Assembly: GCA_034620365.1 (NCBI GenBank)
Contig: JAQGEQ010000179.1
Location: 124,001-188,000, forward strand
From: Pegea sp. RAD2-039
Lineage: Eukaryota > Chordata > Thaliacea > Salpida > Salpidae
DNA length: 64,000 bases
Reading direction: 5' to 3'
The notes under the pieces were generated by a model that worked only from the letters and a program-made list of their open reading frames with translations, made no database searches and was not told the origin of the DNA. The position numbers were made by a program, and so were the translations under genes. Below are positions 14,604 to 41,546 of the stretch, piece by piece. Within the stretch, counting starts at the first letter, position 1. Each line of letters starts with the position of its first letter.

Positions 14604-17600
14604 ATGCCAGTTAACGCTTTTACAACAGATGTAGGTGTGGCATCTTCTTATGATGGGTATATAAGCTTACTTTTTGAAATCAACTTAATTTATTAACTAT
14701 TTGTTAATTATTTAATTGTTATTTTCAGGCCAACAACTTTTTTAAAAAGCCCAGCATTGAGACAAAACATTCGTATTGCTTCTTATAGTTCATTAAATGT
14801 TGTAAACGGAAAGTTTGATAATTTACCGAAAATTGTTCAGGTTTGTATCTACGATGTTGCTCACTTTGTACAGTGAAATCATTTTATTTATTCCAGGATT
14901 ATATCAAAGAGAAAAGTGAAATTTGTCAACCAGATGCAATTCATATTTGTGATGGTAGTGAAGCTGAAAATGTCAAATTTATTGATGAGATGGTAAAAGC
15001 TGGAGAGTTGAAAAAACTTCCTAAATATGACAACTGGTTAGTACTTGATTACCTGCAATATTCTTCAACTTTTATTCGGACAAATTTCTAGTTGGTTGGC
15101 TCGGACTGATCCTAAAGATGTTGCCAGAGTTGAAAGTAAAACTGTGATCATCACGGATAAAAAAGAAGATACTATTCCTACTCCCAAAGAAGGAGTTACA
15201 GGAACTCTGGGTCACTGGATGTCACCTAGTGATTTGGACTGTGAATTGAACAAACGTTTTCCTGGGACCATGAAAGGTTTTTTAATATTTTACACCGATT
15301 TTTCAACAATTTAATTATTTGATATTTTATTATTGAATTGTTTAGAAGTTTTCATCAAATCTTTTTTTATAAACTTTCAGGACGAACTATGTTTGTGATT
15401 CCTTTTAGCATGGGACCTACCGGAGGTTCTATCAGTAAATATGGAGTCCAGCTGACTGATTCCCGCTATGTAGTAGCTAGTATGCGAGTAATGACTCGAA
15501 TTAACCCAACAGTTTTTGATTTAATCAAATGTAACAACGAATTTGTGAAATGTTTACATTCAGTTGGATGTCCTTTACCTTTAAAAAGTCAGTTTCATCT
15601 TTCAACTATTTTCATCAATCAATTTTAATCTTTAATTCTTTTAACAGGAGAATTAGTGAGAAATTGGCCATGTGACCCAGAAAATGTCCTTGTAACTCAC
15701 ATTCCAGCTAAAAATGAGATCATTTCTTATGGAAGTGGATATGGAGGAAACTCTTTATTAGGAAAGAAGTGTTTTGCTCTTCGAATCGGTTCTACAATCG
15801 CTCATCGCGAAGGTTGGCTTGCAGAACACATGCTGGTTGGTAGTTATTTAACTCCTAATTTTGCTCAGCAAATATTTCAACACTTCTACTCAAGTTTTTA
15901 TTTCGAAACTTTTGTTACTTTTAAAATCAAATCGCTTTCAACTCATTTGTCGGCTTTTCAACCACCCAAACCTTTTCTCTTCACTTTTCATCGTGTTGCA
16001 CAATTTGAAGCTGTTTCTACTCAGAAATTCTTCTCAACCTACACAAAGACTTATTCATATTTTTTCGTTCTTTAGAATACAATTCAAAACAATTACTTTT
16101 CAAACAACTCATCTATTACTTACTACTTATTCAGTTAATTCATAAAAGTTGACAAATTATTTTTAGAAATTCAAAAACATCTCTTTTTTCAACTTTTTGA
16201 ACAATCAAGTTGATGTTGATTTTTTGCTAATAGATTTTGGGCATCACTAACCCTGAAGGTGAGAAGAAGTACATCGCAGCAGCTTTTCCAAGTGCTTGCG
16301 GTAAAACTAATCTAGCAATGATGGATCCCTCCATACCTGGATGGAAGGTTTCAACATTTCGTTGTTGTGCTTCGACTTTTTAACTTATTTTATTCCTTGA
16401 AAGGTTGAATGTGTTGGTGATGATATCGCGTGGTTGAAGTTTGGAAAAGATGGAAAGCTGTATGCTATTAACCCCGAAAATGGTTTCTTTGGTGTTGCTC
16501 CAGGTACCTCTAAGAAATCAAATCCAAACGCGTTGGAAGCTTGTATGTCAAACACAAGTCAGTTTCAATTTGTTGTATTTGTTTTTAGGTTTTGTGTAAT
16601 AATTTACTCTTTTTTTTTAAAGTTAATATTCGACAAGTAATTGAAAGTTTATAATTTCATCTGGAATTTTTATCACGATTTAAAACTTTTTGTAAATAAA
16701 CTTTTTATGACTAAAATCTCATAAAATTTGATCTGTTTACAAAACAAGTTCCATTTAAACAAATAATTGGTTGTTTAAATCGATTTCATCATATGTCAAA
16801 TTAAATCAATTTTCTGTCCAAAAAATTTCATTTAATTTCTTATTTTTAAATAATTTTATTGGATTTTTATTACTTAATTTAATGAAGTTGTTTTGAAGCT
16901 TTTTTTACGATGTTTTTATTCATATTTTTTTTTCTTTTCTGATTGTTGACTCATTTGATTGTCAATCAAATCATGTTTTTGATTTTTCAGTTTTTACAAA
17001 TGTTGCTGAAACCGGTGATGGAGGTGTTTACTGGGAAGGATTAGATGAAGAGCCTTGCCAACCAGTTACATCTTGGCTCAATGAGCCCTGGGACAAAGGT
17101 CTCTTAATCTGTCCCATTCCTTAGACATTTTATCAACAATTTGATTAAATTCAGATAGCGGAAAGTTAGCTGCTCATGCCAACTCGCGGTTTTGTGCCCC
17201 GGCAAGTCAGTGCCCTACAATCGACCCTAATTGGGAAAGTGAAGATGGCGTCCCAATCTCCGCGATTATCTTCGGAGGCAGACGTCCTAAAGGTTGACAT
17301 CAAATATTTGTTTAATTTATTTATGAAGCTATAAAGTTTTATTATGAAAACTTCAAAAACAATCTCACTGTGATAAATATTTGTTGATTGTTTTTTGTAG
17401 GGGTTCCACTTGTGTACGAGGCTTTCAACTGGCAACATGGGGTCTTTATTGGAGCTTCAATGAGATCAGAATCAACTGCAGCTGCTGAACACAAATGTGA
17501 GCAGTTAACTTTTCTTATCACTTTGCGACTTCTATATTTTGTAAACAGCCAAAGTAATTATGCATGATCCTTTCGCTATGAGACCTTTCTTTGGCTACAA

Positions 17601-18073
17601 CTTCGGCAAATACCTCTCACATTGGCTCAGTATGGAGAAAAACGATCGTTGCATGCCAAAGGTCTTTCACGTCAATTGGTTCCGTAAGGTTGGTTTGGAG
17701 TTTTTTGTCGGAGACAATTTAATGACACTTTATTTAGGATGCTGCTGGGAAATTTATGTGGCCTGGTTTTGGAGAAAATGCGCGCGTCTTGGAATGGATT
17801 TTTAACCGAACTGCATCTGGATCAGATGATATGACAAATGCTCGCCAATCAGCGATTGGTCTTCTTCCCACTTCCGGCTCCATCAACACTAAGTGTCTGA
17901 AAGGGTTTGAAGATCCAGCAACCTTAGAAAAAGTCTTTCAAATTGATCAAGAATTTTGGTGCGAAGAAGTCGAAGCCATCCGAAAATATTTCGATGATCA
18001 AGTCAACAAAGATTTGCCATGTGAGATTAGTGAGGAGTTAGAGAAGTTAGCTGATCGAGTTAACAAGATTTAA
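14604..18073 (+). CDS. PCK: phosphoenolpyruvate carboxykinase, GTP-dependent, complete
   Basis: Interconverts oxaloacetate + GTP and phosphoenolpyruvate + CO2 + GDP; in many invertebrates it also runs in the CO2-fixing direction. Thirteen exons: 14604-14656, 14729-14840, 14897-15036, 15092-15276, 15381-15587, 15648-15835, 16234-16347, 16404-16557, 16991-17098, 17155-17292, 17401-17496, 17549-17688, 17738-18073, giving 656 aa in consistent phase. Visible family signatures: [11 protein letters not shown], the YGSGYGG substrate loop, EGWLAEHM with the metal-binding His, the P-loop with reactive cysteine [19 protein letters not shown] with the metal-binding Asp, the mobile lid region [15 protein letters not shown], and the guanine-binding [15 protein letters not shown]. 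The start MPVNAFTTD lacks a basic amphipathic presequence, so a cytosolic enzyme is more likely than a mitochondrial one. Introns are mostly 49-108 nt; two are about 0.4 kb. The gene converges with the PWWP-ADD gene on the other strand. Confidence 0.97.
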
Positions 18074-18976: not shown

Positions 18977-21900
18977 TCAAATCGTGCTTAAGGCTTTTTT
19001 ATAGCATGAAATCAGTTGAGATGTCCAATTAAATCTCCAAGTAAATAATTTTGAATCAATGCAAACTTTGCAGCAAGGACACATCCAAGATGACGGATCT
19101 TCAAACTGAAAAGTTCAAAGATATGAATTTTTAAAGGTACCATGCTTCAAAAGAGGTTTAAAACTAAACAAGTTACAATTTTCAAGGTGATAAACGTAAA
19201 ACATTTTATTGACAAATTTAAAAATTTTTATGATTCAAATTTACTAAATATAAGAAGTAAAATGACTTACTTGAGTAATCATTTCATCACTAACCATACT
19301 TGTGATACAAAACTTGCACAAATTACTAAAATTAATCGCATGTTAGACATATTTCTGCTTAAAGTCTAATCAAGTTACAGTCAAAATTATCTTTGATGTC
19401 TAATTATGTATTTATACACATTAGTTTATTGACAAATGACTGATATTTTATTAGATTTGATTTTATAGTTTTGCTGTAGACACATATTACTTTAACCAGC
19501 TTATTTGTTTTAGTACTGAAATGTTAACAATCGATACTTACATCTGACAGTATTTGTTACAGCATTTTAATAATTCAAAGTTGGAAAAACAGATAAAACA
19601 AATATTTTCCATTAAAACATGCTTTGAACTTCTCAAATGATCATATAAAGTATTCTGTAAAAATAATTTTATAAAAAAACCTGAAAATGTTTACCAGTTT
19701 ACTTGACAGTTTTCACAAATTCCTCCTATTATAAAAGGATGATCAGACTTGATCTTTTCACTGCTACAACAAACAACACAGACAAATTCGATAGGAATTT
19801 CTCCTCTTTTGATCTTTTAATTTCGAAAAACCAATTTTGCAAAAAAAAAGAATGTTAGAAACAAAACTATAAATTAAAATTTTCTAAACCTTATTAAAAA
19901 TCAACATTTTCTTCTCATTTTGACAAAACCGTTCTTTCTCTTTCAAAGTTATTTTTTTATTTTGATGTTTCGATCTTAGATTATAATCTTTCTTTTCCTG
20001 ATCAACTATTTGAATACTATCGAACATGGGGATAAAAACCTTCTCGATAAGACTTTCATCTTCGTCGTCACTCCCAGTATAAGCAACAAACTCAATATAT
20101 CTTTCTTCAGAAAAATGATCCAATACTGATGCTTGTGAAATGCCTATTGAGTCAGACACTGAACAAGACACCAGCTCTTTTGAAACTCTTTCATCCAGTA
20201 ACTTTGATGTAGTTGGTTCAGATACCAACCTTGTGTGGGATACATCAGTTAATGGCGAGTCTATCGGTTTCCTTACTAATTTTCTTCTTTTTATTTCTTC
20301 AAATGATTCTTTACGTCTTGATATGGATGATAAACCTTTTTTAACTGAATTAGTTAACAGAATTCTCTCAAGTGATCCGTTACCAAGCTCTATTGGAATG
20401 TCTTCACTTAGATATTCTGTTACTGATGAACCACTTAAGAAATCGTTTTCTGATTGTTTATTATCAAATGATTCGTTTTGGCAGAGCTTGTTGGGAAACT
20501 TTGATGTCATTGACTCTGTTTCATTTTTACGTATCAAAAATGCTTTATAATTTTTTTCAGTTCTTAATCTGTTTTCAAATAATCTTTTCGAATGTTCTAC
20601 TTTTGGATATTCACTTAACAATTCTGTTGCTGATGAATTAGCAGATAATCTTAGTGATCCTGAGCTAACTGAAGATTCGGTTGCTGATGAACTGTCTAAT
20701 AAATTAGATTTGGTAAGTGATTTATTTTCAAGTGACTCACTAAAAAGTTGTGAGTTAAAAGTTTTACCTAATGTCTCCGTCAAAATAGTTTCGTTAAAAA
20801 TACATTTTTCATTTAATTTAATTGGGAAATTATTTTTAGCTAGTTCAGTTGATGGTTGTAGTGCAGTTTGCTGGAAACAAAATTCTGTTGCTGAAGATTC
20901 ATTCAATGATTCTGTTGCTGAAAGAGTCGCCGAAGTTGATTCCGTTGCCGAAGAACTGTCTGATAGAACTCTTGGAGATGGTTCATTATTTACCTTTTTT
21001 TCATTCAAATTAATCCTCAGCTTCGATGCATTCAATTGATTTAGTGATTCTAACCCACTTGTTTCTTCTGAAAGCTTTTTTCTACTTGGTTTAATGGACA
21101 AATTATTCTTATTTAAGCTATTTAACGGGTTTACGACAGCATACTCACTAAAAATTTCAGTTGCTGACGAATCACCTGAGGATTCTGTCGCTGATGAAAC
21201 ATATAAGTTTTTGGACCATAGTTTCGGTCGATTATCGAATAAATTATTTTTATTGGACTTGTTAAAAGGTGTTGTTGTATAAAGATTATCTGAAGGGATT
21301 CCTGCTTTGGTCAATTCACCCAGTGATTCCGCTGGAAGTGGTTTAGGCAGTAGCTTCTTTCTTTCAGGAATTTTGAGGTAATTTGGAGTAAATGGTTTAG
21401 CAAAATCATCTTCTCTAGCTGGCCGATTTAATGTTCCAATTTTAATGGATTCGTTTAATGATTCTGGCTCAGATAAATCACTAGTCAACTCTGAACCTGT
21501 AAATCGATTTGATGAAAAGTCACTTATTTCTAAATCTTCTGTGACTTTCTGACTGGTCATTGCTGGTTGGTCATTCAACAAGTCTCGTAGTTTTAAATTT
21601 GAAGTCCAATCATTAAAAAATAGGTCTTGTGAATATTGTTTGCAAGTTAGGTCCAACATGAATGCGCTTGTTGTAGTGTTATCTGAAGATTGATTTACTT
21701 TTGGTGATTGAGTACTCGCTGGTCTTTTTAAATGTAGTTCTTTGTTCACAGTCCACTCAACCACTGATCGGTTTTCGACATTTGTTGCATGATGCCCTTT
21801 TTCTGAAGCGAATGATTTCAAATTTAGTTTTTTAGCTATTGACTCGTTTGATTTTGCTGGAGGGTTCATTTGTTCATGAAATGAATCGTCAAATAGATGA

Positions 21901-24900
21901 AGCTGTGAAAGTTGATCTAAATTATGTGATTCATCAGGTGTTAACTCCTTCTGCTTGTCGAAATCTAATAATGAACATTCGTCCAGTGCTTTCTCTGCTG
22001 TCTTGTTCATAGTCGATTCTTCAAAAGATGTCTTACCTAGTATTGACACTTCCTGTGTTAATTGCTTGGCAACTGTAGTTGACAATTGATTGGACTCATG
22101 CAATGTTAAAGAGCTTGGAATGCCTGAATCCAGTTGATCAACCAAAGGTACCGATAGACTCAAATCTGTCAAATTATTCTCATCAGTTGTATTTATTTGA
22201 TTATTGATTTTTGTTTCTTTAAATGATTTTTTAGCTTCTTTAAAATGTTCAAAACTTAATGGAGTATTTAGTGGTTTGTCAGCCAGTCTATCAACACTGA
22301 GATTTTGTTGTTGTTCTTGTACCGACGACTCCAATGTCAAATTAGTTCTTGTTTCATGCTCTGATACGGACTGGTTGTTCGTCAACTTGGATATTACTTT
22401 GTTTTCCAACTCTTTTACTTGATTTTCTACCAGACACTGGACATGTCCGAAATTCTTTGATTTAATTTGGTTATTTGCCGTTTCACTAATTCTTAAATGG
22501 TTACCTGATGGCTTTTCTAATTCTTTCACATCAGTCTTTTCATTCAGGTTTTCTACTTGGGCAATTATATTTTGAATCAGTAACTTACAAGTTTGTAAAA
22601 TTTCTTCTGAGCTCACTTCCATCACATGATCAACTGAAATTAGCTCATGAGAGAGTGGGTTTGCCACTAACAACGGAACGTTGTCAACTTCTGACGTAGA
22701 TAAACTTTCATTACTTAAGACTGAATGATTAATTACTGTTTTGTTTTCTATTACTAAACAGTCAGCTATTCCTTCAAGTTTTTTAGTCGACTTACTGCCT
22801 TCTGCAGTTGTTTCAACACCATTTGGTTCTTTCTGTACTCTTTGAGCGTTATCAAATTCTTGTGGAAGAAAAGTTTTAGCTGATTTTGTTGTTAGCTGAC
22901 AAAGCTCTGTTTTTTCTGGTTTCTTTTGAGATATAAAAGTTTCACCAGATAGCTGATCTGAACAAACTTGATTCAGCATTAGATTTGAATTCGGCAAGAT
23001 TTTTTCAATTGTATCCAAGCTTATAAGTCGGCTGGTTGTTGGTTTGTTTGATGGTGAATGGTCAGACTTCTTACATGCTGGTGAACATTCTAATGGTTTT
23101 GATTTTAATTGTCCAATTGCTGATCTATTTAATGAAGTAATACTGATTGGAAAATTCTTTAATGATAAATTTTTGACTATTTGCTCAATTGAAGTTCCTT
23201 TATTTGATAGCATTGTTTGTTTTACAAAAGATAAATCGTTAATATGTAGTTTTGATCGAGCCGATCTTTCAGAAGCATTTTCTAAAAGTGAATTATTTGG
23301 AAATAAATCTGGTGAGGATTGGGTGTTGGTCGATTCTTTGGACTCTGTTAAATCTTCAAACGCTTTTTGGTTATAAGAAGATCCTTGTGATACTGGCTCG
23401 TCTTGTTTTAATTTATCGCTTGATAGACTTTCAGATGCTTGCATGTCTTCTTGTTTCTGTGGGAGTTTGTTCTTTAAAACTGATTGATTGTTTTCTAAAG
23501 TCTCTGAAGTTGTCGGTCCGTCCGAAGTTTCTGATTGGTTTGGTGTAAGTTGCCTCAACGTAGATGATCTGGTTATCATTCTATGCTTCAGTTCAACAAC
23601 TACCGGTTTTCCAACTTTCAAAGCTGTTTTCTTCACTTCAGGCCTGTTTTGATCTCCCATTTCAACTTCTACTGTTAATTGCTTATCCGAGAGTTGACTT
23701 TTGACGCAAGTTGGTTTTTCAAGTGATAAGAAGTTAGCTGCTGAATCTTCCTTAGTTGGCTGTTGCTGGTTTATTAATTCTTCTGAACTCCAATTTTCAC
23801 CATCTAAGCTTTCTGGACTTGGTTGGTTAAAACATGAATCTTCTAGGAATAATTGGTCAACTACTGATTGCTCTAAATGTGGCTTTTTTCTTTTTGGCTC
23901 GTATGAAAATGATTCATCGACATTTATTTTCGTTATACTTTCAAGAAAATCTCTAGATTTTTTTCTACTGCGGAGTGAGTAGGGATTTTCTGTCAGTGAG
24001 TTTTGTTTTTCTGGTAGTAACCGACAAAGGGGTTGATCTATTAATGGTAGCTTTCTCTCTGATGATGGTTCATTTTGAGCTATGCTTTTAACCGCCTCAT
24101 CTTCTTCCTCTTGTCTATTCCAACTAAGATCTGACCTTTGGTCTAAAACAAAAAATTCTTTAATGAAAAACCAAAGCTAAAATACTTTAAATTTATCTTA
24201 ATATAAAGTACCGATTATAATAACAAAAGAACAAATATTTGTTTGTCTTCATATACTTGAAACTCTGTTAGATCAGTTAAAGACTGAATGAAAATACTAG
24301 TTTAAGCACAATCAATTTGAGACTGTTACCAAATATTCCCAATTTCAACTTCATTTTATCATCTCCACTTAGATCAAACTTTATCCAATCAATCAATTTG
24401 TCAATATCTTCATTATTATTCTTTCGATCTGTCGAGCAGAATGGAACATCTCTTAAGTTAAAATTTTAGTTTAAAATTGTAAAAGTATTAACAAAAATTA
24501 GATACAACATTTTTAAACTATTAAACATTTGAACTTACCTAACCGCTTTGCCACTTCACGAACAGCCTCTTCAACTCCACGACAATAGTTCTCATCTCTT
24601 CGGGATTTTCGGTAAAATTTTACATCATTAAAGCACTTGTCAAACTCATAAAAGTAAGCCATATTTTCAAGTTTAATCTATGATATTATTAAGTTTGAGA
24701 AAATAACTTATATTTAATATATTTAAAAAAATAAACCTACTATTTCTATTACCTCTGCATATAATCCGTCTCCATAACATTGTAACCATCTTTTAGGGTC
24801 ATTAACTTTAACTGGAGATCCCTTTAACTCTGAGTCACTAGCAATTCGAGCCGGCCACCATCCATGTCTAGGAAGTTTACCCCAAACCAACTGAAAATTA

Positions 24901-25027
24901 AAGTTATTTATAGATTTAAAAGAAAAAAAAGGAAACAACAAACCGTATTTTGATAAGGGATCACCTTAATTGGTTTCTTTGCTTTCCACTCTTTTGAAAC
25001 CTTTATAGGGTACTCATCATTAGACAT
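18977..25027 (-). CDS. DNMT3-like PWWP-ADD protein, long form, no methyltransferase domain
   Basis: Predicted 1713 aa from nine exons: 25027-24944, 24890-24753, 24677-24539, 24449-24330, 24142-19890, 19813-19703, 19654-19542, 19325-19271, 19105-18977. Exons 2-3 are a PWWP domain (LVWGKLPRHGWWPARI, then CYGDGLYAE and a helical tail with EEAVREVAKRL as in DNMT3). Exon 4 (VPFCSTDRK...LIDWIKF) also follows DNMT3. Exon 5 is one 4.25-kb exon of low-complexity Ser/Asn/Leu/Lys-rich sequence with repeated SATE motifs and basic patches (YSLRSRKK, YNLRSKHQNKK). Exons 6-9 are a complete ADD: GATA-like finger CVVC...HPFIIGGICENC, then PHD-type ligands ICFIC, CCNKYC, LCKFC, WMCPCC and a terminal Trp-rich helix. 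The protein stops 30 residues after the last cysteine, where DNMT3 enzymes enter their catalytic domain. The exon 1 donor is ambiguous (24944 or 24965); 24944 matches the paralogue. Likely a nuclear histone-tail reader; function is inference. Confidence 0.85.
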
Positions 25028-25359
25028 TTTGAAAACAAGAACTTTAATGAAAGATTAGCTAGTGGGTAGCTGTAATACATTATTGGTAATAAAATTAGAA
25101 TTATAATAAACTAGTTTTCTTTGAAAGCTTTAAAGTCAATCCTTTTTGTACAATTTTAAACAAGATCACAAACGATATACTCTGCATTTTATAAATCTAA
25201 CTTGCTAGTAACAAAAATGTGACAAATTTTGCCAAAGAATAAACATATATTCTAATAGAAATTACTCGTCAGCACAATACTTGTGCAGTTAGTAATTCAA
25301 TAAAAAAAATTGAAATAACTTTTAAAGTTTGCTAGTAAATAATCAAAGAGTTGATTCAT

Positions 25360-25520
25360 AGCTCAAGTCAAAGTCTGTCTGTTAAGCTGCATAACCTGGC
25401 TAGCGTGGAGAGTAGAATCCTGCTACATGGGCAACAACTGGATATACATAACTTCTGTCCTGGCACATTTATGCATCGTTCATATGTACGCATGGCCATT
25501 CGCGGCCGAGCCGGGCCACT
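25360..25520. other. unexplained GC-richer patch
   Basis: About 160 bp stand out from the AT-rich flanks by base composition. Both strands have a short open frame here, and neither translation is recognisable. No tRNA boxes, terminal repeats or similarity to the other repeats in this window are obvious. A transposon remnant is the likeliest explanation. Confidence 0.3.
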
Positions 25521-26889
25521 TTTTTCACTTTCGAGTAAAAGTCTAAACATCAAGTTTATTTTAAACTTTAAAAGTTCTGCTTTTTCAATCACAAATTAAG
25601 TAAGCTACCCAAAGGTTTACATAAAGTTGTTATAGTTAGAAAAAGCTTCTATTGATTTCCTTGAGTAAAAACAAATTTGGAAATTAAAATCTTATGTACA
25701 AAACTTATAACTGCTTTAAGCAAGACGCTCGTAATTTTGTTATAAGTTGAGCCTCTATCGAATATACAAAAAATCTAAGTTTGATTTACCAACTTTGATT
25801 TTACGATAAAAACAAAGACAAACAAGAATAAGTTTCATACAAAAAACAAAAATGTAAATAAAAAAAGCAGAAGAAATTTACTAAAACACTCGAAGCTTTA
25901 GTAGTTTACAAAATAAATATGTCTAGAATCTTTTTGATGTTAAATAAGTGGTTCTAACATATACTATTTAGTATTAATACCAAAGATATAATCGAAGATA
26001 TTTGTTGATTTATGGATTTAACGACCAACAAGGTTTAATAAGTTGTACAGATATTTAATTTTGGTTGTTGAGCTTTTGTGGTTGTATTTTATGTTATTAT
26101 TATTTCTTGTTTTGCTGACATACCTTATCTTTCTAATGCATTGGATTTTGACAATAATTTAGTAAGATGAATTTTTGGTAGTCTATTTGAAGTATCAGTG
26201 GCATGCAGTAATGGCATATTAATTGTTAATAAAAGTGTAGTATATTTGAATTAGGTAACTGTAGAATATTTTTCCGCTTACGTAAATGTGATATGCTTAA
26301 CTATTCTATATATAGTTCATTATGTAGCTGACTGTTATGTTGGCGTAGAGTGTATCGTTGTTGCTCATCGTTGTTGCTCATCGTTTTTTCTAGTTGCTTT
26401 TACAGTTGAATAATAACTTAACAATTGAGTTCTCTTGAAGATTTGTTATGATTACAAATAGTAAATAAATTTAAAGCTTATATAACTGTCTACTATTGAA
26501 AGCTGTTCATACAGCACAAGTTGTGATCAATATTTTTATTAAAAAAGTAGATGATCATTCAATTTAAAAGTTTTTGTTTAAAGAAAAGTTCTTTTAAGTA
26601 AATTGAATTAGTTCTTTATAGACTTAAGCATTGAAAATAACCTTTGAAATGTAATTGGCTCAAAAACATGTTTTGCGTTTTTAAGTGCATAGAAACAAGA
26701 AGTGCTCAAGTTCTTATAGCATAACTTCAAAGAGAAAAACATAAATAAAACTATAAGAGTTTGTATTAATTTGAGTAATTAACAACGTAAAATAGTTGAT
26801 TTGAAGGCCAACAAACTCGTAATAGAAATCAGAACTAAACTAATAATCAACTAAATATCTAGTTGAAACTAATAATCAGTTTTGCTATA

Positions 26890-27246
26890 AAGCCAAGAAA
26901 AAATGAATGTGCTTCGGCCGACCACACAGGTACAAATTATAGAGATATAGTTGCTGCTCGTGCGGCATGAATACACTCTCTTCGCCAACAAGGTGGATAT
27001 ATATGGGTGGCATGCAAGCAGAATAAACGGACTGATGCAGCTAGGCCCAGCTGACGTCGCAGGAGCTGCCAGAACGACAGTGACTAACTGCCTACAAAAC
27101 TCCACCCCGGCCTTAAATTCGAGGTCCTTCTACCTGGGCTTTTATATGAACTTTTTCTTGTTGCAAATATGTGTCGGACTGGGCTCGAGCCTGAGACCTT
27201 CCAAGTATCAGTCAGGTGTGATAACCGCTACAATACGGAGGCAGGT
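26890..27246 (-). mobile_element. tRNA-derived SINE, family distinct from the copy at 33.9 kb
   Basis: Read on the minus strand, the head at 27246-27180 looks like a tRNA: TGTAGCGGTTATCAC resembles an A box as in Val/Glu-type tRNAs, a possible anticodon arm follows, and the B-box region GGCTCGAGCC sits at about 27181-27191. No acceptor stem closes it, so it is not a tRNA gene. About 280 bp of GC-richer body follow, down to about 26890. The body does not resemble that of the SINE at 33.9 kb, and no shared LINE tail is visible. The limits of the element are approximate. Confidence 0.6.
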
Positions 27247-27867
27247 AATAAGTAAACAATAAAGATTAAGTTTGCTTGTCTAGACAAAAAGCTCAATTAA
27301 ATTAAATTTGGAGTAAACTTTGCAAGAATAAAACTCAATCATGAATAACTTTTAGAATCTTCCTTTATTACTTTCATTTTTAAGCACGTGAAAATTCTAT
27401 AAAAAATTAACCAAATTCTTCATCGTTTTATTATACAGGATTGTAAAAAAAATAAATGACAAGTAAATTAACATCTTTTGATAAATTTTCTTAAATAACT
27501 TTTTCGGTAGGTAACAGTATTATATTTGGAAAGATATCTGACCAAATATTTCATTTGCGGTTTTAGCTTAGTCTGGTTCAAAACTTCAAATAAAAAAAAA
27601 TATATATTTCAGTTTTTTAATGCTCTGAAAAGTATGTGATATTTAAGTTAAGTCGATATAAGAAGTTCTATTATATATAATACACTTATGGCAATTTTTA
27701 AGTTTTGTGACGAAGCTAGTCTGGATCAAATCGATTTTTATAATATTAGGAAATTGCAGACCACCAAAACTTTTGTAATTTAGTTTTATAACAAAACTAT
27801 TTTATAAACTGAATTTTGTTAACATTCCAGAAAACAAATTTATTTAACTTGAAAGAATTTCAGAATA

Positions 27868-30053
27868 TTACAACACAACAATTTCAGAAGCCTTTCTTTC
27901 TTCTAATCTTTCTGTAATTAAAATGAGTCTCTTAACTCTTTGCATCTGATTTACAAATAAATAATTTTTTGCTTCTCAAAAATCTTTAAATACTTAAATG
28001 TATGATTAAAATTATTATAGGAGATAGATAAATATTAAAGAAATTAGATAGTAACTGCAGTATGGTTACCAGTTGCAAGTTTGCAACCAATTACTCACAA
28101 AATATTTTAAGATTACTATTTAAATAACAAATCGAATATACTTACCAAGACACTAAACTTGAGTAATCGCATTAACCAGTCTTTTCTCCATTTAATTAGT
28201 TCGTATTGAGCTAAATTTCGACATTTCAGGCAATTCCAAGGTTGCATATTTTCTTCCTTTAATTTAAATAGAGAGGGTTGATTAAATCACCGAATAAGTG
28301 CTAATAGAAATAAACACAGTCAGCTCATCTTTAGTATTTTCGACAGCTAGGCCCAATATTTGTTTGTAAGACAACATTTTTGGGTTGGTGTTGTTGATGA
28401 AAGAGATTTTACAGATTAAAGTATTAAATCGACTCAAATAGAAATACATTTTTGTAATCTATGCTGCGTTTGAACTAGTATTGTTGGTATTATTAATAGA
28501 AGATTATAGAGCGTTGTCACACCAATAAACCTAGTCGGTGAAGAAACCAAAAGTATAAGTAACTAAAAACCTCAATTAGAGCATCTTCTCCTTCTAGTAT
28601 GTAGATACATTTCTTACAGATCTTACTAAAAAAGTAAATTTATTGGTTATAGATTTCATGCTCAGCAACCAAACTTAGATTAGAAAAAATAGTTTGAAAA
28701 TCTTACATGAAACAAGATGTGTTCTCACATCTTAATAACACATTTTCTTTCATGCAAATGATACAAACTTTTACATAGAATTTCGTTTCAAACAGTTTTA
28801 TAATACTCCAAAAGTGATCCTAGTAACAAAAAAGTTATCCAATCAAAAGGTTACGAAAACTTTATGCAAACAAATTGTATAACGAAAAATTACTTTGCAA
28901 GTTAAACAAAGTCCACCATTTATCAAAGGATGGTCTTGAACAATATCGTTTAAACCACAACCCACGCATATCAAATCAATTGATGTTGTTCCTGCTTTCA
29001 CCTAATTTCAAAAATCATTTCAAAAACTTATCAGCAAGTATAAAACGAATTTACTTTTGCAATAGAATCTAACTTTCTTTTATAGCTTGGGCAAAACTTA
29101 AAACGCTCCTCCAAGCTATCTTCTTCATTTTTCATAAGAGCTTTAGTGGTCAATTCACATAACTCTGTGGCTCGATCTAGTAAGAATTTAGGAGCATCTT
29201 TACCTATAATTTGTTTAAATTCCATTAAATTTGTAAAAATTATCTACAGATATTAGTGAAATACTTATGAATAGCTTCAAAACTGAAAGCAATATTCTAT
29301 AGAAGCAAGTACTGTAACAGTGATAAACAAATTTTAGCAATTTAATATTTTGGAAAACCAAACTGTTTATTTATATTAATAACTTTCTCGTCTTGTATAA
29401 ACTTTTAAAGCTTGATAAACAGCTTCCTTAAAAGATGACTCCTTGTTAGATTGCAGGATTTTTATTACATCTAGTTTGTGAAACTCTATCACTTCCTCTG
29501 CTTCTAACTAAGTTGAAAAAATATATATTTGAAAAGCTTGTTTATTAATCATTGCAAAGATTCATTTCTAGTTAATGTAATTAGTAAAAAATAGTTTTAT
29601 ATTTCAACTATCATAATATACTTTTTAATCTTTCAATCTTTAGCTTAAAAACTTCTATAACTATTTCAAATACAGGTCAATAAAAGTATTTAAAGAATTT
29701 AGACTCAAGTAATAAAGCTTTGTATTCAATAGTTTAAACCATATACACCAATGATGCAAGATGACTCTAATAATTTTTAGTTTATTTTCATTTAAGTTTG
29801 GAAAATTAAAATAGACTTGAATACCTTTGTATAAGAAAAGTCACCAAACCATTGGATCCAAATTTTATTAGAATCAGAACTAACAAATCCTTCACCTATT
29901 TCATTACTCTTTACTACCCTTCCAGGCCACAAGTCACCATCATCAGATTTTCCCCAAATCAACTGGAAGTAATTCAAGGGTTTAGCTATTGAAACTTTAT
30001 TTTTTCAAAAAAAAACAGCTTACTGTATCTTCAGCAATTTTGTTCCGACTCAT
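27868..30053 (-). CDS. DNMT3-like PWWP-ADD protein, short form, no methyltransferase domain
   Basis: Predicted 301 aa from nine exons: 30053-30024, 29962-29825, 29507-29384, 29203-29055, 29001-28894, 28819-28707, 28625-28571, 28256-28146, 27945-27868. Exons 2-3 are PWWP (LIWGKSDDGDLWPGRVV, IWIQWFGDFSYTK, then SSFKEAVYQALKVYTRRE as in DNMT3). Exon 4 ends EERFKFCPSYKRKL, the linker leading into the ADD. Exons 5-8 are the ADD: CVGC...DHPLINGGLCLTC, then CIIC, RCENTSC, ICKKC and PWNCLKC, followed by IKWRKDW, which closely parallels the DNMT3 ADD end. Exon sizes 138, 113 and 55 nt and their phases match the long paralogue exactly, so the pair arose by tandem duplication. The last exon (25 residues, charged) is the least certain; reading through the exon 8 donor also stops within a few codons. 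No catalytic domain follows. Probably a nuclear H3-tail binder; function inferred. Confidence 0.85.
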
Positions 30054-31445: not shown

Positions 31446-32846
31446 TTATTTCACAGATTGTTTCTTTCTTTTGCGTTCTTTAGCAAGACTTCCGCTAGCA
31501 GCATTTGTTCCACTATTCTTTCGGCTCACCGGCGTATGCGGTTCTTTTAACTGATCAGACCTAAGCAAAAGATACAAAGAGTTAGGAATAACATCTAAAT
31601 ATCTGCAAGAAAGAAATGAGAAAGTTGTTTTAAAACAATTTAATTAAATCAAACTTGTGGCTAATTATTAGTTTATTGAAATTGATTGTTCAATTTATAT
31701 GAAATAAAAAAAGGAAATTATAAAAAACTTCATAATCAAATGAATATTACACCAACTTGCAACTTTCTTTATCGGAGTTGTCATCAGATATAACTAACTT
31801 TCTTTTGACAGGTTCTAATCTAATATGAGAGCTTTCACTATCGTTCTCATCTTCTGCTACTGTTACTACTTCTTCAAGTATAAATGATTATAAGAAATTT
31901 TCAATATAATTTGAATTTCAATACATCAAATATTAAATCAATAGAATTATAGTAAGACGTTTTAATTTAATTCAAATCAAATACTTCTTCTTATCAATGA
32001 ATTTAATAATTTCACCTTTTTTATTGTTTTCAGAATTACCATGAATTGCAGCAGCTGATGTTACTGACGACAAACTAAATAATCTATCCGATACTTTCAA
32101 TTTTTTGCGTCGCTCGCTTTTACTACTAGCATTTCTGCATTAAAACACATTGAAAAATCAACCACTACTTTTCAAACTCAAAGTACTTACTTATTATTCA
32201 GGTATCTGTCCCAACCTCTAATAATATTCCCATATTGTTGAGTATCTTCTAAATAAGTTGCTTCAAAAGCATATATCTGTTTTTCTAGTAATACCAGACT
32301 CTCCTAAAAAACAATTAAATTCAAAAATTAACTTCAAATAATTATTATAAAAGTTTAAAGAATAATTTAGAACAATATATAGATAAATTATTATTTTTTA
32401 CTGCTTAAACAATAACATAAAAAACCTACACTAAACATTAAAACTATACCAATAAAAATAATTGCCATCACAAAAAGTTAATAACATGATAAAAAAGTTT
32501 ATCAATATAAACAAATTAAATCTAACGACATACAAAATCTATTGTAAGTGAGACTTTATAAATTTTTTTATTACATATAAAGAGATAATATTTATGTAAA
32601 TACTGATTAACTGTATTTTTAATACATAATAACAATCATATAACAAAATTAATTGTTGATTTTTATATTTTTTAATGAAAAATACCCATATTATATTTAT
32701 ATAGTCAATGTTTAAATAAAACTGGTCAATAAGAAATAAACTAAATAAAAAATAGAAAAATTATAATATACTTTTGATTCTTGCTTTCTTCTCATAATTT
32801 CTGCCATCTCACTTCTAATATCACTTACAAAACCACGGCCAGCCAT
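31446..32846 (-). CDS. MEAF6: MEAF6/Eaf6, subunit of MYST histone acetyltransferase complexes
   Basis: Small scaffold subunit shared by NuA4/TIP60 and BRPF-MOZ/HBO1 complexes, predicted 178 aa. Exons: 32846-32772, 32303-32191, 32134-32016, 31871-31757, 31560-31446; all in phase. Exons 1-2 give the diagnostic coiled-coil core: [15 protein letters not shown] followed by [20 protein letters not shown] and [12 protein letters not shown]. Exon 3 contains the conserved [15 protein letters not shown] block. The remainder is acidic, then Lys/Arg-rich ([10 protein letters not shown] at the end), as in other animal MEAF6 proteins. The exon 3 donor could instead be at 32040, which keeps the same phase and removes eight residues. 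Length agrees with the roughly 190-residue vertebrate protein. It sits head-to-tail with the two PWWP-ADD genes. Confidence 0.93.
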
Positions 32847-33863
32847 TTCATTAAAGTGATTTTACTAAAACAAAAATTATTAATTAACTGCAAAAAAAGA
32901 TTCATTTATATCATTTTTATAATTTAACTAAATTAAAAAGTATGCATAACTAAAAATTGAATCTTTGTAAAATAAAATTTATAAAAACAAACTATAAATA
33001 ATATACTTTATATAAAATTTAATATTTTGTTTAATTACAAAATTGATTACAACTCAAAAAGTAAATAAAAGATGATGGAAAATTAAGAAGAGATTGCTGA
33101 AAAAATATTAAATATTGTAGTTTATCTGAAGGAAGTAATTAAAGATTTATTTTTGTTGTTTAGTTTTCCAATTTTAATATAAATCTTTAAATTAATTTTA
33201 AATTTGATAATGCTAATTGCTAACAATAATATTTTATAACCAAAAATCATTTACATAAAACAAATTAGATAAACAAGTGTGTACAAATTATTATTAAAAC
33301 CTAAAATTAATTTTAGATTTTAGAAATTAATTTTTTGCAAAGCAATTTTCATGTAAATTTAAAAATAAATTATTTTATTTAAAATTATATTCTATTATTT
33401 ATACATGAATTACAAAATTTGTTATTCGTCAGTCAAAATTAAAATTTGATAAATAAAATAAGGAACATTTTTTTTTATTCATAACATTAAAAATATACAT
33501 AAGATTTACACGATGAAAAAAATTAAAAGATTTAAGTACAAATTTTCGATTTTGAACAAGTGATTTTATTACCCATAAGACTTTTTAATAAAAGCTTTTA
33601 GAATAAGCAGGCTGTTTGTAGCTTTAAACATATCATAGATAATTAAAATGATTATGAGATCACTGATGAGCTACACTCACTACTAAAATATTATCTCAAT
33701 AATAAGACAATGTTTATTTCAAATTTTAATGAAATTAAAAAAAAAACTATTTATTTAATTCTTTAATTTCGCTCAAATATTCTTTAATGGCTTTGTAAAG
33801 CACTAATGTCACCAAAAATATAATAACTAGGTAATTTCTTCATAATAATTATAATAATAATTG
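32847..33863. other. AT-rich intergenic region upstream of MEAF6
   Basis: About 1 kb of extremely AT-rich sequence, presumably holding the MEAF6 promoter. No open frame, RNA gene or repeat can be supported. Confidence 0.6.
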
Positions 33864-35249: not shown

Positions 35250-36035
35250 GTTTTATTTATTTATTTCAATAAATGCGAAGAAGGGTACCTGAAGAAAGCA
35301 CCTCCTGCTAACACACATTCTCACAAATAACACATATTTAGCTAGAAATATAGAAAGTAAAAGATGTACCACATGGCATTTCAGTCAAAAAGCATATAAC
35401 AGTGAACAATTACATGGAATGTTAATGATATAAAAAAAAGAAAAAAATCACAGTTTATAAATGAAAATGTTGGCAATATTATAACGGTTCAACTTCTGCT
35501 TGAACAACGCGAGCGACTTCGACATGGCAATGTCTGATGGCAGCTGGTTCCATGTATTAACTGTGCGGTATGAGAAAAAATTTGCTCTGACCAATGTACA
35601 AGGACTAATGGAAAAGAAATCATCAAACTGAATGTCAATTAAAATGTGGATAATTTTAAACATAAGAATTAAGTCGTATTTAATCCGTTGGATTTCCAAA
35701 GTATCTAAATTGAAGAAACTGAGACGATGTTTATAATTATCATATTTAATATTAAGTTTCCTACATACTAATCTTGTAAATGTGGCCTGAACGGATTCGA
35801 TTTTTTTGATATCACTGACTTGATATGGCATCCATGCACTGACATTGTATTCAAGAATTGGACGTACGTACAATTTGAAAAGATTGATAAAAAGGTCCTT
35901 AGAATTAAAGGTCTTTATTATTAGGAAGGCAAGGTTGATTGATTTTCCAAAGATTTTGGAAACATAATTGCGCCATTTAAAGTCAGTTGTTTGGTTATAG
36001 TTAGAGATAAGTTTATTTATTCTTTGTCTTAGTTA
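35250..36035 (-). mobile_element. 5'-truncated CR1/L2-like non-LTR retrotransposon (LINE)
   Basis: The minus strand encodes the C-terminal tail of a non-LTR reverse transcriptase ORF. The frame is open from about 36030 to the stop at 35448. Diagnostic pieces are YVRPILEYNVSAWMPY, a KIESVQATFTRLVCRK stretch, RLSFFNLDTLEIQRI and RTVNTWNQLPSDI, all typical of Jockey/CR1-type elements. A 3' UTR of about 190 bp follows and ends in (AAAT)n at about 35255. The RT core and the endonuclease are missing, so the copy is 5' truncated and cannot move by itself. Two more copies of the same 3' end lie at 49.7 and 54.7 kb. Confidence 0.88.
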
Positions 36036-38554: not shown

Positions 38555-41546
38555 ATGTCAGGAAAGTCTCTACCAGGCCCATATGGGCTTCCTGTATTTG
38601 GATCTCTTCTGAGTCTTGTAAATTTTAAAGAACGAACTTTAATGGAGTGGTCGAAGTTGTATGGATCCGTGTATCAAGTAAAAATGGGTTCCTGGAAAGC
38701 AGTGGCCTTACAAGGGTAAATATACAATGTAATAAAGTGGTAAAAATTGAGTATAAGTAATAAAATATTGAATAATTTTCTTTTTCATTCCTTTTTATAC
38801 CGTTTAATTTATTTCATAAATTTAAAGCTTTTTGCTCTTTAATTTCAGTTATGAAGCAGTCAAAGAAGCTCTTGTTGATAAAGAAGATATTTTTTCTGAC
38901 CGACCCGTTATTGACGTTTTGAAATCGTACAGAACCAACAACGGATTACTCTTTACACCTGATAACGAACAATGTAAAGAGTGGAAAAAGTTAATAGTTG
39001 AAAGCTTTGATAAAGTTTGGAAACGTAAGCTTTTTAGATTTTAATTTAAACAATTGAATTATCGTTAATTTTAATAATGAGTTAGATAGATTTAATTTCA
39101 TAAAAAAAAACTAAATAAACTTGTTGAAGCTGCTTTATATGCGCTTTGTGTAAAGGACTTAATCTTTGTTTTTAAGTAGATACTAGAGAGAATTATTTTT
39201 TTCTATAATTATTTGTTTGAAATGTACAGATATAGGAGAAAGCATAATTACAGAAAGTCAAATACTTGTTCAAGAGCTTCAAAAAGCGCAAAATCAAAAG
39301 ATAGATATTGGAAAATATTTGGCTCAAACTTCAGCAAATATATTACTTCAAGTAAAACAGTTTATCTAAATTATCTATTGTCAAAATTTAACATCATAAA
39401 CGGTAACTACTACTTAAGCTTACCATTTTTTATCAATGTGTTATCTAAAGTTATTTTATAAAGTTGTCAACCTACAATATAAATTGTTTTAACCCTTTAT
39501 TTTCTAAAGCTGTGCAAGACTTAGGAATAAAGAAACAAAACCATTTTTATCGATCTGAGTCAGCATACCAAAATGCTTTTAATCTTTAGTAAACTGAGTT
39601 TTCTGGTGACTCTTTGTTCCAGTATTTAATGTTGTTTGTTTAAATTGAACAGTGGTTTATAAATAGTTTTTAAATTCTTTGATTTTTCAGTATTATTCAG
39701 TTTTTCAATGAAATTTAGCGAGTTCAAGCCAAAGAAAATTTCTTAAAAGTCATGAAAAGATGACAATATCATTGAACACTAACATAGTTTTGTTTACCGA
39801 TGGCGTTTTTCATATAAACTCTAAATCATCACTAAATCATAAAAACTTTTAATGCTAATTTTACTTCTAAAGTTTAAATGAAATAATCTTTTTAGATTTG
39901 TTTTTCCAAGCGGTTTCAATATGGTTCTGAACATCTGTCGTCAATTATTCAGCTTGTATATGGGACCCCACGGGACAGTCGGTTTGGTTTGATGGTTTTT
40001 ATGCCATGGACTAAAATACTTCCTTCTCATAGAAGGTTTATAGTTTTTATCTAGCCTACTTTAATTGAATTTCTTTCTGGCTGAATATATTATCTTATAA
40101 TATGTTAAAATGAAATGATTACAGTTTTAAACCACTTAAAGTTATAGTGAAGCATTTAACGATTTTTTTAGAGCATAAAAAATGTTTAGTAGTCGGTATA
40201 GAGGTGTGATATTATTGAGAAAAGAATTTTACAAATTTGTTTACTAAATGTCTTTAAAACTTTTGTAAAATTTTTTTGACTAAAAGTTATTCAAAAAATC
40301 AAAATCTACCAAAATAAACTTCATTAAGAGTTAAAATTCTAATTATTATTTTAGTTTTGTTATAAAGATATATCTAAACTACTTTAAAAAATCTATGATT
40401 TGTTAAAGTTTTGAATTTTTTTTTTATTGACAGTAATTAAAATGTTTTTTCAAGCTTTAATCATATCAAACTTATAAATGGAAAATTTTCGCTTTTCTGT
40501 TATTGTTAGAAAAGTTTATAGCAAACTTGATAAACTAAAGTTACTAAATGTTTAAAGATATCTTGAAGAAGTTGAAGATAGACATGAAAACCTTCTGAAA
40601 CGACTTGAAGAACTTCTCAGAGAACGAAATAAAAACAACTTAAATATTTCGGACTTATCATCAACTTTTTACGACGGTAAAACAGAAACAGTTTAAAACT
40701 CATCTTTGTAGTTAAATGGAAAGAAATTATTTTTTAACTGGTTATTTGAATTTATTTTACTTATCAAATTTTACTTATTTTACAGCTTTTAATTTTATTC
40801 GTCTTTTATTACTAGCGTTTAAGAATCCGAATAGTTCAGAAGTTAGGTACTTTCTGACAGTGATTGAAGATATGCTTTTTGGAGGAACTTTCCCATCACG
40901 ATCTCAACTGATGTGGATTTTGTTACTTTTATTAAAAAATCCGTCTTATGTTCCTCGAGTTCAAAAAGAAATTGATGAAGTTTTCGGTGAGGTTTAGTTC
41001 TGATGCTTACAAATCAATAAAAAGTTTCAGATGTCTGAAAGTGAAATAAACAATTTAGAATACGGAAAAAAAAGGATCGAAGATGGAGGTGAAGAGCTTG
41101 AAAGATTACATCTGGCTCGAGCTGTAATGGAAGAAGGGTTAAGACTTCGACCCGCTGTTCCAACCGGCAACTTCCATTCTACAAAACGGGACACAATTTT
41201 CAAAAATTTTTATATTGAAAAAGGCTCTATGGTGATCCCAAACATTTGGAGTGTTCATCATGATTCTAAATTTTGGGCTCCTGATCCCGAAGAATATCGT
41301 CCAGAACGGCACATGGATGAAAAGGGGCATTTTGTTTCTTCCGGCCACGTGATCCCGTTTTCAATCGGACGACGTAGCTGCGCAGGAAGTAAAATTGCAA
41401 GAAAGCTTCTTTTCACTACTTTTGTATCTTTACTGAAAAATTTTGATTTGAAAATTGCTGATGATAGCACAGTAGATGTAGAAGGAGAATCAGTTGCTTT
41501 GTATGTTCCTCCTCCTTATAAATTACTTTTAACAAACCGATTTTGA
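38555..41546 (+). CDS. cytochrome P450 with atypical I-helix, near complete
   Basis: Heme-thiolate enzyme, predicted 479 aa from seven exons: 38555-38715, 38849-39024, 39230-39351, 39896-40035, 40558-40676, 40786-40991, 41031-41546; all in phase. The start MSGKSLPGPYGLPVFGS is the proline-rich hinge of microsomal P450s, but the hydrophobic N-terminal anchor that normally precedes it is absent. A CTAAG acceptor-like site just before the ATG leaves room for a missed first exon. Exon 4 has the KRFQYGS region. Exon 7 has the K-helix ExxR (EEGLRLRP), the YRPERHM PERF motif and the heme loop FSIGRRSCAG with the Cys ligand. The I-helix reads FGGTFPS where AGTDTT is usual, so the acid-alcohol pair is missing. 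The CYP2-like layout suggests a CYP2-clan member, but the family is not assigned. Intron 6 is only 39 nt. Confidence 0.9.

Follow-up and report, generated by a model that had tools for sequence, protein, structure and literature searches.

Two tandem PWWP–ADD genes related to DNMT3, with no methyltransferase domain found, in a salp genome that also encodes a full DNMT3

The window, a 64-kb stretch of Pegea sp. DNA, holds two predicted genes that adjoin on the minus strand as the tandem pair described in an earlier note on this DNA; as rebuilt by hand from the DNA, gene A spans 25027-18977 and encodes 1699 aa, and gene B spans 30053-27868 and encodes 301 aa. Their exons, in window coordinates, are as follows.

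24965..25027, minus strand: gene A exon 1, start codon, 63 nt
24753..24890, minus strand: gene A exon 2, PWWP first part (Pfam), 138 nt, phase 0
24539..24677, minus strand: gene A exon 3, PWWP second part, 139 nt
24330..24428, minus strand: gene A exon 4, linker, 99 nt
19890..24142, minus strand: gene A giant exon 5, linker, 4253 nt
19703..19813, minus strand: gene A exon 6, ADD GATA-like finger (Pfam), 111 nt
19542..19654, minus strand: gene A exon 7, ADD PHD first part (PDB search), 113 nt
19271..19325, minus strand: gene A exon 8, ADD PHD second part, 55 nt
18977..19105, minus strand: gene A exon 9, ADD end and following helix, stop codon, 129 nt
30024..30053, minus strand: gene B exon 1, start codon, 30 nt; its end, ..GATACA followed by gtaagc, resembles that of the first exon in the assembly's full DNMT3
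29825..29962, minus strand: gene B exon 2, PWWP first part, 138 nt; size and phase as in gene A and the full DNMT3
29384..29507, minus strand: gene B exon 3, PWWP second part, 124 nt; weak donor GTTATT
29055..29203, minus strand: gene B exon 4, linker, 149 nt
28894..29001, minus strand: gene B exon 5, ADD GATA-like finger, 108 nt, as in the full DNMT3
28707..28819, minus strand: gene B exon 6, ADD PHD first part (Pfam), 113 nt
28571..28625, minus strand: gene B exon 7, ADD PHD second part, 55 nt; weak donor GTTTTT
28146..28256, minus strand: gene B exon 8, ADD end and following helix (..WRKDWLMRLLKF), 111 nt
27868..27945, minus strand: gene B exon 9 (tentative), stop codon, 78 nt

Both proteins scored above the Pfam cut-offs for a PWWP domain (PF00855; 4e-10 in A, 1.7e-10 in B) and for the GATA-like half of the ADD (ADD_DNMT3, PF17980; 2.2e-7 and 1.6e-10), and alignment recovered all 12 zinc-ligand cysteines in each, bearing out the domain content first read from the sequence. 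The PHD half is less well matched: in gene A it gave a very weak Pfam match (0.64), with the DNMT3 ADD PHD model PF21255 below its cut-off; in gene B PF21255 reached 3.1e-5 and 24.4 bits against a 27-bit cut-off, and zf-4CXXC_R1 barely passed its own (1e-4; 22.8 versus 22.7 bits). Neither protein had any Pfam match to a C5-methyltransferase (MTase) domain; the profile search proposed in the earlier note returned the PWWP and ADD_DNMT3, left PF21255 under threshold and found no MTase. From the last zinc ligand to the stop codon there are 30 residues in A and 50 in B, within the roughly 30-60 that had been proposed.

The linker is where gene A departs from expectation; at ~1400 residues it is unlike a normal DNMT3 linker, and the DNMT3-type linker ascribed to both genes fails in part, for A. 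Its giant exon corresponds, with identical phases, to the 113-nt linker exon 5 of the full DNMT3, and is that exon enlarged ~38-fold. The encoded sequence is rich in S, L, E, K and N and had no Pfam match at E <= 0.5. The exon stays open for 1417 codons, whereas 100 random 64-kb sequences with its dinucleotide frequencies gave no open run above 218; an open frame arising by chance is excluded. GC content by codon position is uneven in both genes (0.41, 0.36 and 0.25 in A; 0.40, 0.32 and 0.28 in B).

Gene A contains one weak donor (GTTTAG), and AATAAA/ATTAAA hexamers lie 57 and 83 nt 3' of its exon 9. Gene B contains two (GTTATT and GTTTTT), the former chosen because it preserves the reading frame. 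Exon 9 of gene B, a tentative exon and the weakest piece of that model, is based on an open reading frame, a splice acceptor and, 24 nt 3' of the stop, an AATAAA; this hexamer is frequent in AT-rich DNA.

The gene structure links both genes to DNMT3. The 138-nt PWWP exon and the 113- and 55-nt ADD exons have the same sizes and phases in A, B and a full DNMT3 (PWWP-ADD-MTase, 695 aa) at C32:743.9-746.8 kb, the identity between A and B that had been noted from the window holding provided that exon 3 of gene B uses its weak donor. This shared architecture argues for common ancestry with DNMT3. The full DNMT3 matches the domain order of A and B through the end of the ADD and then, unlike them, continues into an MTase: its ADD-MTase junction exon, the counterpart of exon 8 of gene B, is 217 nt long and extends into MTase motif I, compared with 129 nt in A and 111 nt in B.

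Searches of the PDB with phmmer agree. Gene B (E <= 0.001) matched DNMT3B best at 2e-29, DNMT3A/B PWWP chains being among its matches, and the gene A ADD (E <= 0.1) matched DNMT3L best at 2e-13; among the sequences listed, 26 of 26 for gene B and 21 of 21 for the gene A ADD were DNMT3A/B/L. ATRX ADD structures are present in the PDB, and the lack of a single ATRX chain in either set leads us to reject an ATRX origin of the ADD and upholds the DNMT3 origin originally proposed. A search of 5.8 billion proteins with gene B gave 540 candidates, none at E <= 0.001, so the protein database searched seems to be without a DNMT3 relative.

No MTase sequence, even degenerate, follows the ADD of either gene, as the earlier note had anticipated. 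Within the window, tblastn with the MTase of the full DNMT3 and with a second DNMT3 protein, encoded on C262, gave best E values of 1.9 and 1.4, ruling out a concealed MTase exon there; on contig C29, own-genome searches turned up nothing that matched a DNMT3 MTase. Genome-wide, the matches of the full DNMT3's MTase (seven) were confined to C32 and C262.

The 105.7-Mb assembly nevertheless retains the methylation toolkit, leaving unsupported the earlier claim that the catalytic half had been lost and that the pair were readers thereby uncoupled from DNA methylation. Searching the genome for catalytic domains, as had been suggested, located the full DNMT3 and the C262 protein (594 aa, MTase only), with SPCNDLS and ENV motifs intact in their MTases, together with DNMT1-type sequences at seven loci, as well as domains of the SRA and TET types; loss of the whole system is thus ruled out. 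Taken by itself a family search misleads here, since PF00145 overlooked the full DNMT3 because introns interrupt its MTase. The DNMT1-type loci include open-frame copies without catalytic motifs, and intronless retrocopies are ruled out by DNMT1-RFD matches upstream in seven of seven. The C262 protein has no recognised PWWP or ADD, and none convincing is seen in the 9.5 kb upstream; a degenerate version in its N-terminus was rejected, its Smith-Waterman score being reached by 179 of 300 shuffles, and one weak tblastn match of the gene A ADD (E 0.021) came up. Telomere-like short tandem repeats were not found at six contig starts. Elsewhere in the assembly, Chitin_bind_4, Col_cuticle_N and COX1 were without matches, although the first two may have been missed and the assembly may be without a mitochondrion; an 18S gene lies at about C27:4260-6045, and the DNMT3, TET and EGF-type genes suggest an animal.

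PWWP-ADD sequence was found at just three loci in the assembly, genes A and B and the full DNMT3, in an exon-by-exon search that scored the best candidates only. A and B are just 24-29% identical and still have every zinc cysteine, which, with the 1417-codon open exon, argues for constraint. In a MAFFT alignment and FastTree phylogeny of five sequences they cluster with local support of 0.90 (PWWP+ADD) and 0.97 (ADD), a grouping that could be long-branch attraction. The PWWP of gene A is 42% identical to that of the full DNMT3, 26% to human DNMT3B and 24% to gene B, so two independent truncations are possible; its ADD is 33% identical to human DNMT3L and 29% to the full DNMT3 of the same genome.

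Excerpts from the DNMT3A literature place the H3K36me-contacting PWWP cage at F303/W306/W330/D333 and the ADD contacts to H3K4 at D529/D531/Q534; an excerpt of PMC13031684 reports that W330A abolishes H3K36me2 stimulation. In our alignment the cage reads H/W/C/D in gene A and G/W/W/D in gene B, and the H3K4 contacts read K/V/E, with both acidic residues gone, and E/K/V, respectively; neither gene has a complete canonical set of either kind. The full DNMT3 itself has H at F303, Q at D531 and G at Q534, so partial drift is tolerated there too. With contact residues partly gone, plain reading of H3K36me/H3K4 marks is doubtful for both predicted proteins. The label of histone-mark readers is accordingly weakened: A is without W330, the F303 aromatic and the H3K4 acidic pair, and B, which keeps W306, W330 and D333, has lost the F303 aromatic and has E/K for D529/D531.

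We think it somewhat probable that A and B arose from DNMT3 by duplication and truncation and that their products would bind chromatin non-enzymatically with a drifted histone specificity. Because the full DNMT3 and its companions remain in the assembly, the two genes would be truncated paralogues alongside a surviving toolkit and not the remnant of a lost enzyme; they are probably side-branch copies with a non-enzymatic job, and their domains make chromatin-binding proteins the most likely outcome. We infer both the order and the age of the events: a DNMT3 gene would have been duplicated, one copy shortened within the exon linking the ADD to MTase motif I, the shortened copy then duplicated in tandem to give A and B, and the gene A member would later have gained its enormous interdomain linker. 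The proteins would be nuclear, use their PWWP and ADD folds to bind nucleosomes with a specificity shifted from canonical H3K36me2/3 and H3K4me0, and serve as chromatin scaffolds or regulators, A by way of a long, probably disordered arm. Mammalian DNMT3L is similar in having an ADD and no catalytic activity, and is the top-scoring match of the gene A ADD. DNMT3L has no PWWP and retains a catalytic-like fold through which it contacts DNMT3A, in contrast to A and B, where a PWWP is present and the chain ends 30 or 50 residues past the last cysteine; without that domain, A and B could not act exactly like DNMT3L.

Several other readings were weighed. That the pair regulate the DNMT3 enzymes in trans, their PWWP-ADD modules docking on the catalytic domain of either one, full or MTase-only, or competing with it for chromatin, is unlikely: intact DNMT3 MTases exist in the assembly, one of them without a recognised PWWP or ADD, and an excerpt of PMC13031684 gives a Kd of 11 uM for the DNMT3A ADD-MTase contact, with the PWWP touching both, but the DNMT3L-type interface domain is missing and the autoinhibitory ADD loop residues (Y526, Y528, D529, D530 and D531 in DNMT3A) are replaced by K, F, E, T and K in B and by R, S, K, H and V in A. 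We also doubt that A and B read the canonical H3K36me2/3 and H3K4me0 marks for a use other than methylation; the folds are recognisable, both proteins have equivalents of W306 and D333, B also retains W330, and some drift is tolerated in the full DNMT3, yet the cage and H3K4 substitutions above speak against it, as does C at W330 in A given the W330A effect described for DNMT3A. A more elaborate arrangement, in which DNMT3 would be split into subunits, with A and B sensing chromatin, the C262 protein catalysing, the halves joined in trans, and four of the seven DNMT1-type genes as dead partners, seems very unlikely; if true, methylation would be targeted by a separable adaptor, huge and disordered in A.

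There is similarly slender reason to suspect the gene models, either that A and B form one gene (PWWP-ADD-PWWP-linker-ADD) or that a far-off MTase exon is used. The phase-0 GTAAGT donor of gene B exon 8 could join the phase-0 exon 2 of gene A, and exon 9 of gene B is weak; against this stand the AATAAA downstream of the gene B stop, gene A's own ATG exon in frame upstream of its exon 2 and, for a distant exon, the lack of a DNMT3 MTase match on contig C29. Decay of one or both genes into pseudogenes is highly improbable: high divergence, the weak donors and the uncertain last exon of gene B would fit, but 18 exons run without internal stop or frameshift in models picked to preserve frame, and the open giant exon, the complete zinc ligands and the uneven codon-position GC all count against it.

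The nearest described case, on excerpts of PMC8016896, PMC11963560 and PMC10570034, is Daphnia magna DNMT3.1, which has a PWWP and an ADD, no working catalytic domain and a mutant life-history phenotype under starvation. Like A and B, it coexists with a second DNMT3, one with all six MTase motifs; as described there, its MTase domain persists in a diverged form that has lost five of six motifs, whereas no MTase was found in A or B, and its active partner lacks a PWWP and keeps the ADD, whereas here one full and one MTase-only DNMT3 are present. Excerpts on chaetognaths (six DNMT3 copies, all missing ADD and PWWP; PMC12460157) and Ciona savignyi (a Dcm-only DNMT3; PMC6976628) describe domain loss after duplication, like the C262 copy; there the regulatory half was lost, making A and B the mirror case. 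Pea aphid Dnmt3X, another divergent invertebrate DNMT-related gene, is judged inactive and possibly a pseudogene in an excerpt of PMC3335499, where it is described by its missing key amino acids and not as a PWWP and ADD without an MTase. Among the matches listed from open-licence PMC papers, none was a PWWP-ADD DNMT3 paralogue fully without an MTase domain. Such genes may be under-reported; an Ecdysozoa survey, in the excerpt of PMC8821070, restricted its proteome candidates to DNA_methylase-domain proteins, and would therefore skip a PWWP-ADD protein without one by design.

The regulatory and catalytic halves of DNMT3 are usually studied as one autoinhibited chain. A single genome with a whole DNMT3, the regulatory half twice and the catalytic half alone would offer natural tests of each half, and its DNMT1-type copies without catalytic motifs hint that inactive methyltransferase paralogues may be used more broadly.

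Hand-built exon models, in which keeping the reading frame was the criterion, define two neighbouring genes, A and B:

25027-18977, minus strand: gene A, 9 exons, 1699 aa
30053-27868, minus strand: gene B, 9 exons (the last tentative), 301 aa

All 16 introns of the two models are GT-AG, with three weak donors (GTTATT and GTTTTT in B, GTTTAG in A). PWWP and ADD_DNMT3 exceeded the Pfam cut-offs in both proteins, and the PHD half of the ADD fell below the cut-off of the DNMT3 model in both; in B this half also matched zf-4CXXC_R1, barely above that model's cut-off. Against the PDB, B matched DNMT3B at 2e-29 and the ADD of A matched DNMT3L at 2e-13, and all sequences listed (26 of 26 and 21 of 21, respectively) were DNMT3A, 3B or 3L. 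Alignment placed all 12 zinc cysteines in each protein; after the ADD, both contain a stretch R-x-x-W-x-x-x-L and then end. The gene models, Pfam and PDB matches and cysteines thus bear out the earlier note's description of tandem PWWP-ADD genes that end after the ADD, and assignment of both as PWWP plus DNMT3-type ADD is firm. A phase-0 donor at 28146 (B exon 8) fits a phase-0 acceptor at 24890 (A exon 2); from these matching phases, a read-through transcript of B and A encoding PWWP-ADD-PWWP-linker-ADD would be possible in principle.

Most of the linker of A is encoded by exon 5 (19890-24142), which runs for 4253 nt with zero in-frame stops, compared with 124 and 160 stops in the remaining two frames; the longest open run among 100 random 64-kb sequences generated from its dinucleotide frequencies was 218 codons. 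A Pfam search of this exon gave no match at E <= 0.5. Its product is abundant in S, L, E, K and N, a composition from which we infer that the linker is disordered, and residues 1130-1389 carry a repeated S-S-A-T-E motif (SATE seven times, SVTE once) whose putative role in phosphorylation or docking is a guess.

Other features of the window are:

31449-32861 (extent by eye), minus strand: gene with a match to NuA4/EAF6, a histone acetyltransferase subunit (PF09340 on exon 32190-32303), immediately upstream of B
15042-18070 (extent by eye), plus strand: gene for a PEPCK of the GTP type, with matches to PF17297 and PF00821 across two ORFs, convergent with A and ending ~0.9 kb from its stop
41004-41543, plus strand: C-terminal part of a cytochrome P450 (PF00067, 2.6e-41)
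35451-36032 and 52129-52719, minus strand: two open reading frames that by eye resemble the ends of LINE-type reverse-transcriptase ORFs; no Pfam match at E <= 0.01

In the assembly that contains the window (387 contigs, 105.7 Mb; the window is on contig C29), the ADD_DNMT3 profile matched at three places: A, B and a locus on contig C32 that reads as a complete DNMT3 (15 exons, hand-built; 695 aa) with PWWP, ADD, MTase and the motifs SPCNDLS and ENV. The sizes and phases of the 138-nt PWWP exon and the 113- and 55-nt ADD exons are common to all three genes; the identity of these exons between A and B, pointed out earlier, therefore holds but is not peculiar to the pair, reflecting the general DNMT3 layout of this genome. 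The linker exon of the full gene (113 nt) is phase 1 in and phase 0 out, as is the 4253-nt exon of A; in B, a single 149-nt exon replaces two linker exons. The ADD-end exon of the full gene is 217 nt and continues into LRVLSLFDGIAS; its counterparts are 129 nt in A and 111 nt in B, and the MTase part is absent from both. DNMT3L retains a catalytic-like fold. Per-exon searches of the assembly with B and the two domains of A, scoring the best candidates only, found no further PWWP-ADD copies.

The MTase of the full gene gave seven matches in the assembly, at two loci, its own and one on C262; PF00145 gave 11, at seven DNMT1-type loci, on C262 and, three times, on C49, where they look by eye like DNMT2:

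C262 (L013), 4490-6298, minus strand: MTase-only DNMT3, encoded in one uninterrupted frame (about 600 codons; 594 aa)
C32 (L004-L006) and C52 (L007): DNMT1-type loci
C57 (L001, L002) and C249 (L003): counterpart DNMT1-type loci

The MTase of the C262 protein matches DNMT3A at 5e-77 and retains SPCNDLS and ENV, and we recognised no PWWP or ADD in the protein; its gene adjoins exons resembling, by eye, pyruvate carboxylase. All nine DNMT1-RFD matches lie 5' of the seven DNMT1-type loci, and BAH was present in each of the four scanned. PPCQ and ENV are kept in three of the seven; the other four, with open frames of 832-873 codons, have neither motif and are, judging by sequence, probable DNMT1 pseudoenzymes. 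The two C57 loci are inverted relative to each other, ~4 kb apart. SRA matched four times, once in a 693-codon open frame (C74:342265) and three times elsewhere on C74 and C76, and a UHRF1-type gene may have multiplied as well; TET matched three times, at a single C52 locus. The CpG observed/expected ratios of the window (0.69) and the full DNMT3 gene (0.53) are compatible with some methylation, without proving it. The earlier note took A and B for the remnant of a lost enzyme, which is wrong for this genome because the toolkit persists: DNMT3 MTases at C32 and C262, the DNMT1-type loci, SRA and TET are all in the assembly.

PWWP identity to the full gene is 42% for A and 29% for B, and A and B share 24% with each other; for the ADD the values are, in this order, 29%, 37% and 29%. 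FastTree on five sequences placed A and B together (support 0.90 for PWWP plus ADD, 0.97 for ADD), on very long branches. The simplest history would be a single truncation followed by tandem duplication; two separate truncations are possible. In its PWWP, A shares 42% with the full DNMT3 of this genome against 26% with human DNMT3B, suggesting a lineage-specific copy; in its ADD it shares more with human DNMT3L (33%) than with the own-genome DNMT3 (29%), a comparison that lends this no support.

The earlier note also proposed that A and B read histone marks. As described in two papers (PMC6316889, PMC13031684), the H3K36me pocket of DNMT3A comprises F303, W306, W330 and D333, with W330A abolishing H3K36me2 stimulation; D529, D531 and Q534 contact H3K4, and Y526, Y528 and D529-D531 are involved in an autoinhibitory contact. 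With this numbering transferred by hand onto the alignment, the four pocket and three H3K4 positions are H/W/W/D and D/Q/G in the full gene, itself somewhat drifted, H/W/C/D and K/V/E in A, and G/W/W/D and E/K/V in B. Both folds look retained, but the contact residues have diverged, above all in A. That weighs against straightforward reading of H3K36me or H3K4me0 and makes it less likely that the pair reproduces the autoinhibitory contact in trans, although substitute residues could serve the lost contacts.

The nearest protein in the literature covered is Daphnia magna DNMT3.1, which likewise has PWWP and ADD, in which five of the six MTase motifs are gone, and whose mutant, when starved, shows altered growth, reproduction and life span (PMC8016896, PMC11963560, PMC10570034). 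Six chaetognath DNMT3s (PMC12460157) and one from Ciona savignyi (PMC6976628) are the opposite of A and B, having lost the regulatory half. Among the matches listed from mostly open-access literature, none was a DNMT3 paralogue of PWWP and ADD alone; one large survey, whose proteome search made DNA_methylase a requirement (PMC8821070), would miss such genes. The pair is a further form of an already known class, inactive DNMT3 paralogues, and its members most likely act as chromatin-binding proteins without enzyme activity.
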